Origin: Rhizobium sp. RU33A
GTDB taxonomy: Bacteria > Pseudomonadota > Alphaproteobacteria > Rhizobiales > Rhizobiaceae
Assembly: GCF_900156055.1 (NCBI RefSeq)
Contig: NZ_FTMQ01000001.1
Span: forward strand, 248,001-312,000
Length of the DNA stretch: 64,000 nt
Direction of reading: 5' to 3'
Numbering within the stretch: position 1 is the first letter of the stretch; every line of letters starts with the position of its first letter. Below the pieces are notes generated by a model, which saw nothing but the letters and a program-made list of their open reading frames with translations, was not told the DNA's origin and made no database searches. This document shows positions 60-8,578 of this stretch, piece after piece. The translations under genes and the position numbers were made by a program.

Positions 60-431
60 ATGCAATACCTGCTGCTGATCTACGAAAACGAAGAAATCTT
101 TGGCGGGCCGGACAAGATGGGCCCGATCATGGCCGATCTCGGTCCGCGCCATTTCGCCTTCAGCCACGAGCTGGGCGAGAAAATGCACGCGGGCGCCGGG
201 CTGAAGGGCACGGAGGCTGCCACCACGGTGCGCACCACGGGTGGCAAGCAGACCATCCATGACGGTCCCTTTGCCGAAACGCGCGAACAGCTGGGCGGCT
301 TTTATCTCGTGGAAGCCGAGGACCTCGATCAGGCGATTGCGATCGCCAGAAAGGTGCCGCTCGGCAAGGATGGCGCGATCGAGGTCCGGCCGCTCTTGCC
401 GATGCCGCCGGGCTTGGCGCCGAAGCGTTGA
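60..431 (+). CDS. YCII/DGPF-domain protein paired with an ECF sigma factor
   Basis: This 123-residue protein is a single YCII-like alpha/beta domain. It has the hallmark DGPF tetrapeptide around residue 70 (context HDGPFAETREQLGG). The start follows a strong Shine-Dalgarno (AAGGAGGGG) eight bases upstream. The gene ends 4 bases before the sigma-factor gene at 436, so the two are almost certainly co-transcribed. DGPF proteins are known neighbours of ECF42 sigma factors. Their biochemical role is not settled, and a sensor, modulator or detoxification role would be inference. The call is secure at domain level only. Confidence 0.9.
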   Translation: MQYLLLIYENEEIFGGPDKMGPIMADLGPRHFAFSHELGEKMHAGAGLKGTEAATTVRTTGGKQTIHDGPFAETREQLGGFYLVEAEDLDQAIAIARKVPLGKDGAIEVRPLLPMPPGLAPKR

Positions 432-435
432 GACG

Positions 436-1674
436 ATGCGGACAGCGGTCCTCGACGAGACCTTCCGGGCGGCGGGCGGGCGCATTCGCGCAGCACTCGC
501 CGCCCGTTACCGCGATCTGGATCTCGCGGAAGAAGCCTTTGCCGAGAGCTGTCTCAAGGCGGTAAAGGTCTGGGGTGAGGAGGGACAAAACCTGCCGCGC
601 GATCCGGCCGCCTGGCTCTACCGGGTCGCCGAGCGCGCCGCACTCGATATCCTGAGGCGCAGGCGGACACGGGCGGACAACCGGCCGGACGAGCCGGATC
701 CCGAGCCGACGGTCGAGGATCGGCTGACGAGCGACGACGCCGTCATTCCCGACGAGCGGCTAAAGCTGATTTTCGTCTGCTGCCATCCGGCCGTCGCCGC
801 CGACAGCCGGGCGGCGCTGACGCTGAAAATGGTCTGTGGCCTCTCAACCGAGGAGGTGGCGCGGGCTTTTCTCGTTTCCGAAACGACACTCGCGCAGCGG
901 CTGGTCCGCGCCAAGCGCAAGATCGCCGAGGCCGGCGTGAGTTTCGAGGTGCCGGGGCCTGAGCACTGGGCCGAGCGGCTGGCGGCGGTCTTGTCGACGC
1001 TGGAGGTGGCCTATGCCAAGGCGCATGAGGACGCGGCGGGGTCCAGCCGTCATGCGGGCTTTGCCAGCGAAATGCTGGAAGTGACGGCGCTGCTGACTGA
1101 GATGTTGCCACAAGAAGCGGAGGTTCTTGCACTTGCTGCGACGATCCGCTTTGCCGAGGCCAGGCGGCCCGCAAGGTTGGATGCGGAGGGCGTGATGGTG
1201 CCGCTTGCCGAGCAGGACCCAGCCCTTTGGTCTCGCCCACTGATCGAAGAAGCACGCCGATACTGCGGTCGGGCACTTGGGATCTCAGGGCCCGGGCCGC
1301 GCATTTTACAGATGATGATCCACGCGCTCTGGTGCGGCAGGAAGAGCCTCGCCGATCCGCCGCCCTGGAAGGCCGTGCTGGCAGCTTATGATATTCTTGT
1401 CGAGCTGCGTGACGACGCCATCATCCGCATCAACCGGGCTGTGGCGCTGGCGGAAGTGAAGGACGCGGAAGAGGCGCTGGCCGAGCTGGATGGGTTGGAT
1501 GCCGATGCGCTCTCGGAATTTCTGCCCTTTCATGCCGCACGGGCGGATCTGTTGGCGCGGCAGGGGAGGGTTGCCGAGGCCCTACAGGCCTATGACCGCG
1601 CCTTGGTCCTCTCGCCCGGGGAGGCGGAGCGGCGGTTTCTGGAGCGGCGGCGGGAGGTGTTGGCGGCGTCCTGA
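436..1674 (+). CDS. ECF42-type RNA polymerase sigma factor with C-terminal TPR-like extension
   Basis: This 412-residue protein has sigma region 2 in the N-terminus (context LYRVAERAALDILRRRRTR) and sigma region 4 around residues 115-160 (helix-turn-helix STEEVARAFLVSETTLAQRLVRA). A long C-terminal extension is helical and TPR-like (e.g. FHAARADLLARQGRVAEALQAYDRAL). This architecture, plus the DGPF gene 4 bases upstream, is the published signature of ECF42 sigma factors. Those work without a classical anti-sigma factor and are thought to be controlled through the extension. The ATG at 436 is chosen because it directly follows the upstream stop. The longer reading frame from 241 would overlap the DGPF gene. 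Confidence 0.9.
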   Translation: MRTAVLDETFRAAGGRIRAALAARYRDLDLAEEAFAESCLKAVKVWGEEGQNLPRDPAAWLYRVAERAALDILRRRRTRADNRPDEPDPEPTVEDRLTSDDAVIPDERLKLIFVCCHPAVAADSRAALTLKMVCGLSTEEVARAFLVSETTLAQRLVRAKRKIAEAGVSFEVPGPEHWAERLAAVLSTLEVAYAKAHEDAAGSSRHAGFASEMLEVTALLTEMLPQEAEVLALAATIRFAEARRPARLDAEGVMVPLAEQDPALWSRPLIEEARRYCGRALGISGPGPRILQMMIHALWCGRKSLADPPPWKAVLAAYDILVELRDDAIIRINRAVALAEVKDAEEALAELDGLDADALSEFLPFHAARADLLARQGRVAEALQAYDRALVLSPGEAERRFLERRREVLAAS

Positions 1675-4327: not shown

Positions 4328-5767
4328 TCAGGGCTGAGGTGAGGGCCCGGCCGTACACAGACGCCGGGCATCGAGCAGGCCCCAGCCGAAGATCTGATCC
4401 TTGCCGGGCGCGCCGATATCCTGCGCCAAAAGCGACAGGGCCTCGGCCATCTCGGCCGGCGTGAGATCCGGTCGCGCCGCCAGCAGGACGGCCGCAGCGG
4501 CACTGACGAAAGGAGCGGCAAAGGACGTGCCGCTCTTCGGCCGGGCGCCGCTGACCGAGGCGGCTGTCCAGACATTGACGCCGGGGGCTGCGATATCGAC
4601 ATGCTCCCCTCGATTGGCGCGCCGATAGGCATTGCGGCCCCGGTCGACGGCGGTAACGGCGATGACGCCATCATAGCCGGCGGGATAAAGCGGTTTCGCT
4701 CGTGGACCGGCATTGCCGACGGCCGCGACGAGGATCGCGCCGCGCGCGATCATGGCCTCCACGGTTGTCTTCAGCAGCGCATTGTCCGGACCGGCAAGGC
4801 TGAGATTGATCACCCGCACATTGCGACGCGCCAGCCCATCGAGCGCCCTAACCAGGTCGAAGGTCGAGGCGACATCGGCCGATCCGTTGAGTCGACGGAA
4901 AGCATCGACGGCAATCACCTCGGACGAGGGCAGAAGGCCCGGTGCCCGGCTGCCAGCAGCACCGACGAGGAGAGCCACGACTGCTGTTCCATGCTGGCGC
5001 CCGGATTGCGGCAGGGCATCGTCGGTGATCCGGATAACCTCGAGCCGCGCATCGCCGAGGGACGGGTGATCCGGGTTGATGGCCGTATCGATCAGGCCGA
5101 TCGTCGGCAGGCTTCCGCAGCGCTGCACGAGTCCTGCGGGATCGATGGGCCAGCCGATGATCTCGCGCACGAGGGCGCAGGTCTGGCCGCCGCAATCGGG
5201 GGCGGTTTCCGTCTGCTCGGGCCGGTAATAGTGATTGAAATCGACTTGAGCGACCGGGGCAAGGGATGTGACCCTCTCGCGCGCCGCCTCCAGCCCGGTG
5301 CCGCGCGGCACGACGAGACGCACGATCTCGGTCGCCTGCCCGGTGGTCACCAAGCCGAGGCTCTGGCGCTCGGCGATGGCATAGCCTTCTTCGGTCAACT
5401 GTGTGATGTCCGCCTCCGAAAGCCCGGATGCTATGATCTCGTTCGGCACGCGGTCGGGAATCGTGGGGGCTGCCCGACGAACGGGTGCCGGACGTGGCGA
5501 TTGCAGGAATGGGAAGAGCGTGAAGCCGGATTGACGGGATGGCGTCCGATCGCCCGATCCACCGGAGCCGCCACGGTCGCTGCGCCCACCCCCGCCGCTG
5601 CCGCCGCCGTCGTCATCATCGTCGTCCCCACCGCCGTCATCGTCGTCATCGGCATGCGCGAGCGTGACGAGGTGGTGCGTGGGGGCGAAGGGCAGCGAAA
5701 CGGGCGGGGGCAGGAGTACCGCGAGACCCAGCAATCCGCCGAGCAACCTTGCAAAGACCCGATCCAT
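4328..5767 (-). CDS. Secreted S8 (subtilisin-like) serine protease with Asp/Gly-rich linker
   Basis: This 479-residue protein begins with a hydrophobic signal sequence (residues about 5-40). A strongly acidic glycine-rich stretch of Asp and Gly runs follows (about 40-75). Then come a propeptide-like region and an S8 catalytic domain. The triad is intact: Asp227 in GLIDTA, His259 in QHGTAVV, Ser415 in SGTSFAAP. The start at 5767 has a Shine-Dalgarno (AGGGAGAG) and directly precedes the signal peptide; frames extending further upstream lack support. It is divergent from an ECF sigma/anti-sigma operon, and an ECF-like promoter element lies 65-90 bases upstream. This suggests it is an output, or a partner, of that sigma factor. 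Secretion and maturation are inferred. Confidence 0.9.
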   Translation of the reverse strand: MDRVFARLLGGLLGLAVLLPPPVSLPFAPTHHLVTLAHADDDDDGGGDDDDDDGGGSGGGGRSDRGGSGGSGDRTPSRQSGFTLFPFLQSPRPAPVRRAAPTIPDRVPNEIIASGLSEADITQLTEEGYAIAERQSLGLVTTGQATEIVRLVVPRGTGLEAARERVTSLAPVAQVDFNHYYRPEQTETAPDCGGQTCALVREIIGWPIDPAGLVQRCGSLPTIGLIDTAINPDHPSLGDARLEVIRITDDALPQSGRQHGTAVVALLVGAAGSRAPGLLPSSEVIAVDAFRRLNGSADVASTFDLVRALDGLARRNVRVINLSLAGPDNALLKTTVEAMIARGAILVAAVGNAGPRAKPLYPAGYDGVIAVTAVDRGRNAYRRANRGEHVDIAAPGVNVWTAASVSGARPKSGTSFAAPFVSAAAAVLLAARPDLTPAEMAEALSLLAQDIGAPGKDQIFGWGLLDARRLCTAGPSPQP

Positions 5768-5831
5768 GTTCCATCTCTCCCTGGCCGGCCTCGGGCCTTC
5801 GAGACCCGTCGACGAGTGTGATGTCAGGTTA

Positions 5832-5856
5832 TACGTGCGAGCCGCTGGTTTATTCC
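5832..5856 (-). promoter_or_regulatory. ECF-like promoter for the S8 protease (GGAAT-N16-CGTA)
   Basis: On the minus strand GGAAT (5856-5852) is followed after exactly 16 bases by CGTA (5835-5832). The predicted transcript starts near 5825, giving a leader of about 57 bases. The layout matches two further elements at 7234-7258 and 8117-8141, and all three lie around the ECF sigma gene at 5876. This is by-eye motif evidence only. Confidence 0.45.
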
Positions 5857-5875
5857 GGAGAGACGGAAAGTTTTT

Positions 5876-6400
5876 ATGGTTGAGCCTGTCGATATCGTCG
5901 GAGAGCGCCTCGTCTCCTTCCTGCCGAACCTCAGGCGTTTTGCAATCTCGCTCTGCCGTGCACGCGATGTCGCCGACGATCTGGTGCAGCAGACCTGCGA
6001 GCGCGCGCTTGCGGCAGCCGCGAGCTTCGACCCGCAGACACGCTTCGACGCCTGGGTGTTTCGGATCCTGCGCAATCTCTGGCTCGACCAGTTGCGCCGG
6101 CAAAAGACAGCGGGCCCCGCCGTTGATATCGACGAGATGCATGACCTCTCCGTGGCGTCAGGCGAAGCGCAGAGCGAGGCGAGGCTGGCGCTCGAAAGGG
6201 TTGAAGTCGCCCTGCAGCGATTGCCGCCCGAACAGCGCGAAGTTCTTGTCCTGGTCTGCATCGAGGACATGAGCTACCGCGATGCGGCCGACATTCTGGA
6301 GGTGCCTGTCGGAACGGTCATGAGCAGGCTCGCCCGTGGCCGAAAGGCACTTTCCGAATTGACGGGAATAAATCCCGAAGCCAGACGTTCTTCGCCATGA
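5876..6400 (+). CDS. ECF RNA polymerase sigma factor
   Basis: This 174-residue protein has the compact two-domain ECF layout. Region 2 is at about 20-85 (RDVADDLVQQTCERAL, FDAWVFRILRNLWLDQLRRQ) and region 4 at about 110-160 (LERVEVALQRLPPEQREVLVLVCIEDMSYRDAADILEVPVGTVMSRLARGRKAL). It is followed 16 bases later by a one-span membrane anti-sigma gene and is divergent from a secreted S8 protease. No GGAAT-N16-CGTT element was found directly upstream of it, so autoregulation is not evident. The cognate signal is unknown; an envelope signal is likely given the membrane partner. Confidence 0.93.
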   Translation: MVEPVDIVGERLVSFLPNLRRFAISLCRARDVADDLVQQTCERALAAAASFDPQTRFDAWVFRILRNLWLDQLRRQKTAGPAVDIDEMHDLSVASGEAQSEARLALERVEVALQRLPPEQREVLVLVCIEDMSYRDAADILEVPVGTVMSRLARGRKALSELTGINPEARRSSP

Positions 6401-6416
6401 GAAAGGCGGACACTCC

Positions 6417-7211
6417 ATGACACGCGCGATTCCCGACGAAATGCTGATGGCCTTTGCCGATGGTGAGCTCGCTCCTGAAGAGCAGGAAGAGATCGAGAAG
6501 GCTCTCGCCGAAGACGAGGGTCTTGCCGAGCGCCTCGCCGTGTTCATGGACACGAGAGACGAGCTTGCGACGACGATGAAGCCGTTGATCGACGAAGCGG
6601 TGCCGGCAGCACTTCAGGCCTCACTCGTGGCTGCGGTCGCGACAGCCCGGCAGACGCAAGGCGCCGCGCCACAAGCCGCCACACCGCAAACAACTGAGAC
6701 TGTCGTGCCGCTCTGGCCGCGTGCGTCTTCAACGTCTGCCGCTCGCTCCTCCGGCTCCGCGATCTCGTCGCCCTGGGGCATGGCCCTTGCCGCCTCCTTC
6801 GTCGGGGTCGTGGTGGGCCTTGGCGGATTCCTTCTCGGCCAATCCACCGGCGTCGCGCCTGATGGCGCAAACCTGGCACTCAACGATGCGCTGGAAACCC
6901 TGCCCTCCGGTGGGGATCGCGCGCTCTCTGAGGCCGAAAGCCTGCACATGATCGCGAGCTTTCGCGATGCCGAAGGGCATCTCTGCCGCGAATATGAGCG
7001 CAAGGCCGCGGATGCTGTGACCACGGCGGTGGCCTGCCATGGATCGGCGGGCTGGCAGACGCGGTTTGCGCTTACCAACCCGGTGGCCGAAGGTTATGTA
7101 CCGGCCTCTACCACGGACACGCTGGATGCCTTCCTCTCCGGCATCGGCGCCGGTGCGCCATTGTCGCCTGAGGAAGAGACAGCCGACATCGAGGCTCTGC
7201 GCAGCCGCTGA
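6417..7211 (+). CDS. Membrane-anchored anti-sigma factor
   Basis: The 264-residue protein has an N-terminal helical region typical of anti-sigma factors (DEMLMAFADGELAPEEQEEIEKALAED). A Pro/Ala/Thr-rich linker follows, then one transmembrane helix at about 120-145 (MALAASFVGVVVGLGGFLLG). The periplasmic domain is roughly 115 residues and holds two cysteines (HLCREY, AVACHG). The zinc-binding HxxxCxxC motif of zf-HC2 anti-sigmas is absent. Position and topology indicate it sequesters the ECF factor encoded 16 bases upstream and senses an extracytoplasmic cue. The two periplasmic cysteines could form a disulfide, which is speculative. Confidence 0.85.
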   Translation: MTRAIPDEMLMAFADGELAPEEQEEIEKALAEDEGLAERLAVFMDTRDELATTMKPLIDEAVPAALQASLVAAVATARQTQGAAPQAATPQTTETVVPLWPRASSTSAARSSGSAISSPWGMALAASFVGVVVGLGGFLLGQSTGVAPDGANLALNDALETLPSGGDRALSEAESLHMIASFRDAEGHLCREYERKAADAVTTAVACHGSAGWQTRFALTNPVAEGYVPASTTDTLDAFLSGIGAGAPLSPEEETADIEALRSR

Positions 7212-7233
7212 AACAAAAAAATTCTGCGGACCG

Positions 7234-7258
7234 GGAATAACCTCCCGCCGCATCCGTT
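7234..7258 (+). promoter_or_regulatory. ECF-like promoter (GGAAT-N16-CGTT) upstream of the gene at 7291
   Basis: GGAAT (7234-7238), a 16-base spacer and CGTT (7255-7258) lie 33 bases upstream of the ATG at 7291, so transcription would start near 7265. The anti-sigma gene ends at 7211, so the site gives the next gene a promoter of its own. The spacing is identical to that of the elements at 5832-5856 and 8117-8141. Confidence 0.5.
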
Positions 7259-7290
7259 CTCCAGAGCAGACCAGGATCTGGAGAACGCCG

Positions 7291-8007
7291 ATGAAGCTCT
7301 CGCTGCTGAAACGCCCCACCCCACGCATCACCTTCACCTGCCGGCCCGAGGACGAAGGTGTGATCACCCCGCCGGTGCGGGCAAAGACAGTCTTGCCCGA
7401 ATGGTTCCGCAAGCTGCCGGCAGTGACCGAGGCCAAGGTTTCTCCGACAGACAGCGGCCTGACGGTCAAGCGCTGCATGCCGTTTCTCGATGCGATGATG
7501 GCGGGCTGGGTGATCGGGCTGCCGGCAACCGTGCGCATGGAAATTTCCGATGGAGGCCGCACGGTGAATTGCGGCTGGGATTTCGACCGCACGCTTGTCA
7601 GCAATCATGCTACCCACCAGGTGGCCGGCAATCCGCGTGATCCGATGCCGCCCTGCAAGTTTCACAACTACTGGACCATTCGCACGCCGCCCGGCTGGAG
7701 CTGTCTTTTTGTCTCGCCGCTCAACCGTCCCAACGGGGTGTTCGAGGTGGTGGCAGGCGTCGTCGATACCGACACCTATCAGTCGGAGATCCACTTTCCC
7801 TTCTTCGCAACGGGGCCGGATGGCCTGCATGTGTTGGAACGTGGGACCCCAATCGTTCAGGTCATTCCTTTTCGGCGGGAGACTTCCGACCTTGAAGGAG
7901 ACATCCGCAGCGAGACTGAATCGGAGCAGGTGACCCGAAAGTCGATTTTCCGCAAGACGCTCGCTTCTGAAGGCTGGTACCGGAAGTTCGCCCGCGCCCA
8001 GCGCTGA
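7291..8007 (+). CDS. Protein of unknown function, 238 residues, in the ECF locus
   Basis: I do not recognise this family with confidence (possibly DUF6065, unverified). The protein is cytoplasmic in appearance, with no signal peptide or membrane span. It has a conserved-looking aromatic and proline-rich core (KTVLPEWFRKLP, FHNYWTIRTPPGWSCLFVSPLNRP) and a C-terminal basic tail. The start is set by the Shine-Dalgarno CTGGAGAA seven bases upstream of ATG 7291; longer readings through the anti-sigma gene are rejected. Its position between two ECF-like promoter elements, behind the sigma/anti-sigma pair, suggests membership of that regulon. No catalytic motif could be identified. Confidence 0.8.
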   Translation: MKLSLLKRPTPRITFTCRPEDEGVITPPVRAKTVLPEWFRKLPAVTEAKVSPTDSGLTVKRCMPFLDAMMAGWVIGLPATVRMEISDGGRTVNCGWDFDRTLVSNHATHQVAGNPRDPMPPCKFHNYWTIRTPPGWSCLFVSPLNRPNGVFEVVAGVVDTDTYQSEIHFPFFATGPDGLHVLERGTPIVQVIPFRRETSDLEGDIRSETESEQVTRKSIFRKTLASEGWYRKFARAQR

Positions 8008-8116
8008 CATCTTCACGCATCATCCTGCTTTCGACCACCCGGAACGGCGTTTCGGGTGGCGTCTACGTTTCTACTTGAAAATGGAAATAAATATCTGAAA
8101 ATAAACGATTTTTCTT

Positions 8117-8141
8117 GGAATAAACCTGAGGGCCGCCCGTT
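8117..8141 (+). promoter_or_regulatory. ECF-like promoter (GGAAT-N16-CGTT) upstream of the Ser/Asn-repeat gene
   Basis: GGAAT (8117-8121), a 16-base spacer and CGTT (8138-8141) stand about 50 bases before the ATG at 8192. The bases after GGAAT (AAACC) match those of the element in front of the S8 protease. The layout also resembles the alphaproteobacterial general-stress EcfG promoter (GGAAC-N16/17-CGTT), so either the local ECF factor or EcfG could use it. Confidence 0.5.
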
Positions 8142-8191: not shown

Positions 8192-8578
8192 ATGAAGAAA
8201 TTCATCGCCATCCTGAGCTCTGTGCTCGCCATCGGCACCACTGCGCCGGCCCCCGCTCTTGCCGACGATCCGCTGACCCGCTTCCTCGACCGCTCGACGG
8301 GTGAGGGCCGCTCCTATGCACGCTCCGGCAATCGCAACGACGATCGACGTGGCTCGAGCTCGAACAGCAACAGTAACAGCGACTCGAACAGCAATTCCAA
8401 CAGCTCGTCGAACTCCTCGAGCAATTCAAGCTCGAACTCATCCTCGAACAGCAGCTCCAACTCGTCGAACAATTCCAGCTCGAATTCGTCTTCGAACTCG
8501 TCTTCCAACTCTTCGTCGAACTCGTCCTCGAATTCGTCCTCGAATTCGTCGTCCAACTCGTCCGACGATGACGATTGA
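8192..8578 (+). CDS. Secreted Ser/Asn tandem-repeat protein
   Basis: The 128-residue protein has a classical signal peptide (MKKFIAILSSVLAIGTTAPAPALA). A short basic segment follows (RSYARSGNRNDDRR), then about 80 residues built almost entirely of Ser and Asn in S-S-S-N style tetrapeptides, ending in DDDD. The start is preceded by AAGGAGACTGACC. A low-complexity exported polypeptide of this kind could be a flexible surface or matrix component or a stress-induced coat; the function is unknown. An ECF/EcfG-like promoter lies just upstream. The repeats are reflected at DNA level in 12-base units. Confidence 0.8.
   Translation: MKKFIAILSSVLAIGTTAPAPALADDPLTRFLDRSTGEGRSYARSGNRNDDRRGSSSNSNSNSDSNSNSNSSSNSSSNSSSNSSSNSSSNSSNNSSSNSSSNSSSNSSSNSSSNSSSNSSSNSSDDDD
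8399..8566 (+). repeat. Degenerate 12-bp tandem repeat coding for (S/N)-rich tetrapeptides
   Basis: Fourteen consecutive 12-base units fit the pattern AAY-TCN-TCN-TCN with minor variation, such as AACTCGTCGAAC in place of the third Ser codon. Each codes for Asn-Ser-Ser-Ser. The 3' units are the most alike (AACTCGTCCTCG/AATTCGTCCTCG), as expected for repeat expansion by slippage. The repeat stays in frame with the host gene. Confidence 0.8.

Follow-up and report, generated by a model that had tools for sequence, protein, structure and literature searches.

A promoter-type site inside the sigma factor gene of an RpoE6-type (ECF26) locus in Rhizobium sp. RU33A and its conservation across related loci

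Overview

Within the 64,000-nucleotide stretch of Rhizobium sp. RU33A DNA analysed here (the window), an ECF sigma factor, its membrane anti-sigma factor and their neighbours form an RpoE6-type (ECF26) locus, in which the sigma factor probably transcribes the genes of an S8 protease, a DUF6065 protein and a Ser/Asn-repeat protein, together with the gene of its own anti-sigma factor from a promoter lying inside the sigma gene, an arrangement that would give a pulse-type, self-braking response. The local targets of RpoE6, including a promoter within rpoE6, are already known in S. meliloti (Lang et al. 2018), and the window is therefore a further member of the RpoE6-type loci. As far as our literature search reaches, the new leads are the breadth of conservation, two metabolic candidates and a cysteine pair. 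Among the matches listed in that search, mostly outside subscription papers, no paper connects ECF factors to a glycerate kinase, to a subtilase or other serine protease, or to anions.

Read across many genera, a single overexpression result becomes a regulon readable from sequence. The comparison adds a DASS symporter and glycerate kinase as candidate metabolic targets and Cys residues as candidates for signal sensing. It also suggests that the promoter of the inhibitor gene limits codon choice in the sigma gene. Some paralogs carry the site upstream of their sigma gene, which would make positive and negative feedback comparable between related systems.

The sigma and anti-sigma factors

The sigma gene (5876-6400, plus strand) encodes a protein with sigma regions 2 and 4 only. 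In a tree of 46 sigma proteins, which sampled 23 of the 80 related loci described below and 17 of 23 paralogs besides the window's own protein, and for which the program warned of long branches, it falls with the S. meliloti locus L084 among 24 RpoE6-type rows (support 89/95). These rows and two sister rows make up one side of the tree (support 96/94), and five other ECF factors from the same S. meliloti genome fall outside the RpoE6-type side. This sequence comparison identifies the window's sigma factor as orthologous to S. meliloti RpoE6, a member of group ECF26 (Lang et al. 2018, PMC6180224).

The adjoining gene (6417-7211, plus strand) encodes a predicted membrane anti-sigma factor of 264 amino acids, whose NCBIfam and Pfam matches to anti-sigma and zinc-finger families are weak and below cut-off. 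Its predicted structure, with an overall pTM of 0.49 and a low-confidence linker, comprises a helical N-terminus (residues 7-82), a helix at 120-142 that would span the membrane, and an alpha/beta domain on the periplasmic side; the model fits the expected layout of an N-terminal anti-sigma domain, a single membrane helix and a periplasmic C-terminus. Two cysteines of the predicted periplasmic domain, Cys190 and Cys207 (first and last codon of 6984-7037, plus strand), are invariant in all 34 aligned anti-sigma factors, and the pair is present in 78 of 79 loci. No structure matched the model at E <= 0.001 in a fold search, and neither Pfam nor NCBIfam returned a match to NepR; the single match of a PDB profile search (E 0.072) was set aside as not credible. 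It is from the predicted membrane anti-sigma factor that we infer an envelope signal.

The target genes

Divergent from the sigma gene lies that of a secreted-type S8 (subtilase) protease (4328-5767, minus strand; PF00082, E 2.3e-35), the signal peptide of which was judged by eye. Its S8 identity had been recognized earlier and stands, while its start is corrected to the ATG at 5767. Downstream of the anti-sigma gene, a protein previously described as unrecognised, though rightly singled out as promoter-marked, starts at 7291 (7291-8007, plus strand) and matches DUF6065 (PF19541, E 1.6e-8). The structure model of this protein resembles dUTPases in a fold search, which suggests a dUTPase-like fold; at the level of profiles, the dUTPase family PF00692 was matched in one of 39 DUF6065 members (E 0.27) and a PDB profile search listed no dUTPase up to E 10. 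The literature search found no paper in which the family is named. The third target candidate, a secreted-type Ser/Asn-repeat protein (8192-8578, plus strand), has no Pfam or NCBIfam match.

Promoter-type sites in the window and in the genome

The earlier note had described three copies of the motif GGAAT-N16-CGTW around the sigma/anti-sigma pair, and a pattern search of the window returns all three with the same coordinates, strands and 16-base spacing. The copy at 5832-5856 (minus strand), GGAATAAACCAGCGGCTCGCACGTA, reads GGAATA...CGTA and is the predicted ECF promoter of the S8 gene; those at 7234-7258 (plus strand), GGAATAACCTCCCGCCGCATCCGTT, and 8117-8141 (plus strand), GGAATAAACCTGAGGGCCGCCCGTT, are the predicted ECF promoters of the DUF6065 and Ser/Asn-repeat genes. 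The total, given as three, is four: a copy at 6365-6389 (plus strand), GGAATAAATCCCGAAGCCAGACGTT, had been overlooked within the last codons at the 3′ end of the sigma ORF. This fourth site, a predicted anti-sigma promoter, lies 27 bp upstream of the anti-sigma ATG at 6417, so that the anti-sigma gene also counts as a target. It was correctly noted that the window has no copy upstream of the sigma gene, and scanning the surroundings of the sigma start (5600-6000) for sigma-70 promoters gave none either. A short terminator-like stem followed by a T run is located at 5853-5868 (plus strand), in the interval that separates the S8 site from the start codon of the sigma gene.

The genome-wide scan that had been proposed as a check places the frequency at this locus far above background. 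The 4.85-Mb genome holds 31 copies of GGAAT-N16-CGTW, four inside these 2.3 kb and 27 elsewhere, against 11 for the reversed pattern; the expectation for 2,310 bp is 0.015 copies, giving P = 2e-9 under a Poisson model, a rough value in that uniform density is assumed and the pattern was derived from this same locus. The longer core GGAATAR-N14-CGTW occurs four times in the genome, every time at this locus (reversed control, one).

Conservation across related loci

Named genomes were searched with an alignment of close sigma factors as the query, and of the 417 loci confirmed in this way the best 80 were compared. They span Rhizobium, Agrobacterium, Shinella, Sinorhizobium/Ensifer, Neorhizobium, Mesorhizobium, Aminobacter, Pseudochrobactrum and others, and are related to each other, many being near-copies, so the counts that follow are not independent. 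The strict site is found upstream of the anti-sigma gene in 78 of 79 loci and of the DUF6065 gene in 50 of 50. A site also stands upstream of every Ser/Asn-repeat gene (51 genes in 51 loci). For the S8 gene the strict site is present in 62 of 78, or 73 of 78 if CGTC is allowed: among the 16 genes without the strict site, 11 carry GGAATA-N16-CGTC instead, and no upstream site was found in L070 and four Pseudochrobactrum-type loci. Only two of the 80 loci, both from Afifellaceae, have a strict site upstream of the sigma gene. The comparison with orthologous loci, which had also been suggested, thus finds the site retained at the same genes, and together with the RpoE6-dependent transcription known from the S. 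meliloti ortholog it supports the earlier proposal of a local regulon.

The site also marks genes of other kinds and places. In other genera, Shinella among them, it stands upstream of a glycerate kinase gene in 29 of 29 cases and of a DASS symporter gene in 20 of 29, the remaining nine lying about 100 nt behind a repeat gene that has a site. Neither gene was found in the window's genome, and each is present in one of ten same-genus genomes, with G065 serving as the positive control. At other, distant loci in Ensifer and Aminobacter, the site accompanies DUF6065 and Ser/Asn-repeat genes. Site searches across the genus (63 genomes) gave 5.75 sites per genome with the sigma gene versus 2.61 without it, an excess that roughly equals the contribution of the local sites themselves.

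Several minor observations concern the S8 site and the loci compared. The full 25 bases of the S8 site, GGAATAAGCTGTCGAGTCAAACGTA, spacer included, are identical in L066, L067, L068, L073, L074, L076, L080 and L091, which come from several genera; the constant spacer may have a role for another factor or for the promoter facing the other way. Small secreted-looking proteins with long terminal Asp runs, each with a site, are encoded in L079 and L087 (upstream of S8) and in L136 (at about 5502, plus strand), and the S8 proteins bear similar Asp runs. The record of L127 is named Bacillus subtilis, yet its locus is Pseudochrobactrum-like, so that it is probably mislabelled or contaminated.

The site within the sigma gene

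Near the 3′ end of 79 of 80 distinct sigma genes the site recurs in the same reading frame; in L117 it is mismatched. Its -35 box is read as the codons GGA ATA in 77 of these 79 genes, whereas elsewhere in the same genes Ile is encoded by ATC 446 times, ATT 169 times and ATA 54 times, and GGA makes up 73 of 608 Gly codons (Fisher 9e-68 and 2e-61, rough values that treat related genes as independent). None of the 23 paralogous sigma stretches has the in-gene site; in six of them the sigma region could not be placed, yet no site occurs anywhere in those stretches. Four paralogs (L027, L028, L030 and L031) carry the site upstream of the sigma gene instead. The in-frame GGA ATA with its rare codon, and the absence of the site from this place in paralogs, suggest that selection has acted on the nucleotide sequence and not just on the encoded protein.

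The sigma factor most likely drives its own brake, the anti-sigma factor, and not itself. Since Lang et al. favour autogenous control of the whole operon in S. meliloti, wiring to the brake only is not proven.

The RpoE6 locus of S. meliloti

L084 is the rpoE6 locus, in which the published promoters of SMa0142, SMa0144 and SMa0148 were matched with 0, 1 and 1 mismatches and the published rpoE6 promoter with 2. When RpoE6 is overexpressed in S. meliloti, transcripts of the serine protease and anti-sigma genes and of two hypothetical genes next to them increase, and RpoE6-type promoters were mapped at the protease, anti-sigma and DUF6065 genes, one of them within rpoE6 (PMC6180224). Lang et al. 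explain the rise of ecfR6 by autogenous control of the operon, to which the in-gene promoter might contribute, and they could not assign a role to RpoE6 (PMC6180224). A heterologous test shows RpoE6 activating an ECF26 promoter (PMC10880074), and overexpression of SMa0142 did not visibly alter nitrogen fixation in a peptidase screen (PMC8175422).

The window shares with SMa0142-SMa0148 the orthologous sigma and anti-sigma genes, the divergent serine protease and the DUF6065 and Ser/Asn-repeat genes, and it has the RpoE6-type layout of GGAATA/CGT promoters at the protease gene, the anti-sigma gene (within the sigma ORF) and the DUF6065 gene. The two loci are also alike in promoter type and, presumably, in a sigma promoter of another type. 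They differ in that the S. meliloti locus is on pSymA and its DUF6065 gene is inverted; the targets in the window are predicted from sequence. Counted from the sigma start in L084, the published strings end at -54 (rpoE6) and -63 (SMa0142); should transcription begin at these ends, the rpoE6 and SMa0142 promoters would each lie within the transcribed region of the other.

Proposed mechanism

In the mechanism that we propose, the sigma factor would be produced from a promoter of another type and kept bound by the membrane anti-sigma factor. A signal acting on the periplasmic side of the latter, perhaps at the Cys190-Cys207 pair, would release the sigma factor, which would then transcribe the protease, DUF6065 and repeat genes and simultaneously raise more anti-sigma factor. 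As the sigma factor would not raise itself, the feedback would be negative, and the outcome would be a self-terminating pulse rather than a switch that amplifies itself. Where other genera have the anion symporter (DASS) and glycerate kinase genes, these may also come under control of this sigma factor. A more comprehensive version, offered tentatively and with a good deal less confidence than the local regulon, is an alphaproteobacterial envelope regulon with a built-in brake and release through the Cys pair, in which an envelope redox cue would be tied to the uptake and phosphorylation of a glycerate-like acid, with a codon-constrained sigma gene, with secreted subtilase, repeat and dUTPase-fold targets and, in numerous genera, with symporter and kinase targets as well.

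Comparable wiring has been described for SigH-RshA of C. glutamicum, where housekeeping promoters precede the sigma gene and a sigma-dependent promoter inside it drives the anti-sigma gene only, which was proposed to allow quick shut-down of the response (PMC3489674). The organism is unrelated, however; RshA works together with thioredoxin in responding to redox stress and heat, and the regulon is much larger (PMC3489674).

Alternative explanations and related systems

The alternative that survives best, though we regard it as rather unlikely, places the S8 protease in the signal path: it would cut the anti-sigma factor outside the membrane and so supplement the brake with positive feedback. 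The S8, sigma and anti-sigma genes co-occur more steadily (S8 in 78 of 80 loci) than DUF6065 (50 of 80), as this would suggest, but the protease may simply be the main output.

A lower probability attaches to the sites serving this sigma factor and its ECF26 paralogs jointly, so that several sigma factors would have the cluster as a target and it would not be a regulon of this one's own. Exchange between these factors is on record in S. meliloti, where overexpressed RpoE4 weakly raises SMa0142 (log2 0.7), RpoE6 raises RpoE4 targets such as sorT (PMC6180224), and one ECF26 promoter is activated by RpoE1, RpoE4 and RpoE6 alike (PMC10880074); in the table of Lang et al., however, the paralogs change the local genes little or not at all (PMC6180224). 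A shared target is also disfavoured by 51 same-genus genomes without this sigma factor, which have paralogs but, among the matches listed, no such cluster. The sulfite response of RpoE1 and RpoE4 likewise belongs to ECF26 and uses a GGAAT -35 box, but it differs in its sulfite oxidase target, in autoactivation of the sigma gene and in its -10 box (PMC3511301, PMC6527743), which ends in CGTC as against CGTT or CGTA here. A sulfite (RpoE4-type) reading of the locus was rejected: the anti-sigma factor adjoining the S. meliloti sulfite oxidase gene (L145) is without the conserved cysteine pair, rpoE6 is reported not to be induced by sulfite sources (PMC3511301), and the window's neighbours are the S8, DUF6065 and repeat genes and no sulfite oxidase.

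The EcfG system of general stress works by a partner switch through NepR and PhyR, with a small soluble NepR-type anti-sigma factor beside the sigma gene. Control of the sites by EcfG (RpoE2 type), in which case the adjoining sigma gene would be incidental, now appears highly improbable; a general-stress link was the main alternative of the earlier note. The two-box layout and spacing are alike, and 27 of the 40 targets of overexpressed RpoE6 in S. meliloti overlap the RpoE2 regulon (PMC6180224), a documented cross-talk at RpoE2 promoters that weakens any clean separation of the two factors. As the main driver, general stress is nevertheless a weak candidate, because the in-gene sites of 79 of 80 loci (none was found in the remaining one) have T as fifth base of the -35 box and not the C of EcfG, visible in the RpoE2 rows of Table 1 of Lang et al. 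(PMC6180224). All four window sites read GGAAT where EcfG has GGAAC, and the anti-sigma factor here is a predicted membrane protein.

Chance clustering of a loose motif, for which the 27 copies elsewhere in the genome might speak, can be practically dismissed in view of the Poisson value, the restriction of the strict form to the locus, the codon constraint, the published starts in the ortholog and the conservation, which by itself already contradicts it.

Two further ECF systems were considered. The HOCl-responsive ECF factor of Brucella, considered for comparison, belongs to ECF16 with an NrsF anti-sigma factor and was set aside as a different system (PMC8315932). Within the window, 4 kb away, a second ECF system at 60-1674 (plus strand) combines a sigma factor (ORF 241-1674) that has DUF6596 and a TPR-like C-terminus with a YCII-domain protein (60-431), and the pair resembles the RpoE10/ECF42 pair described in Lang et al.
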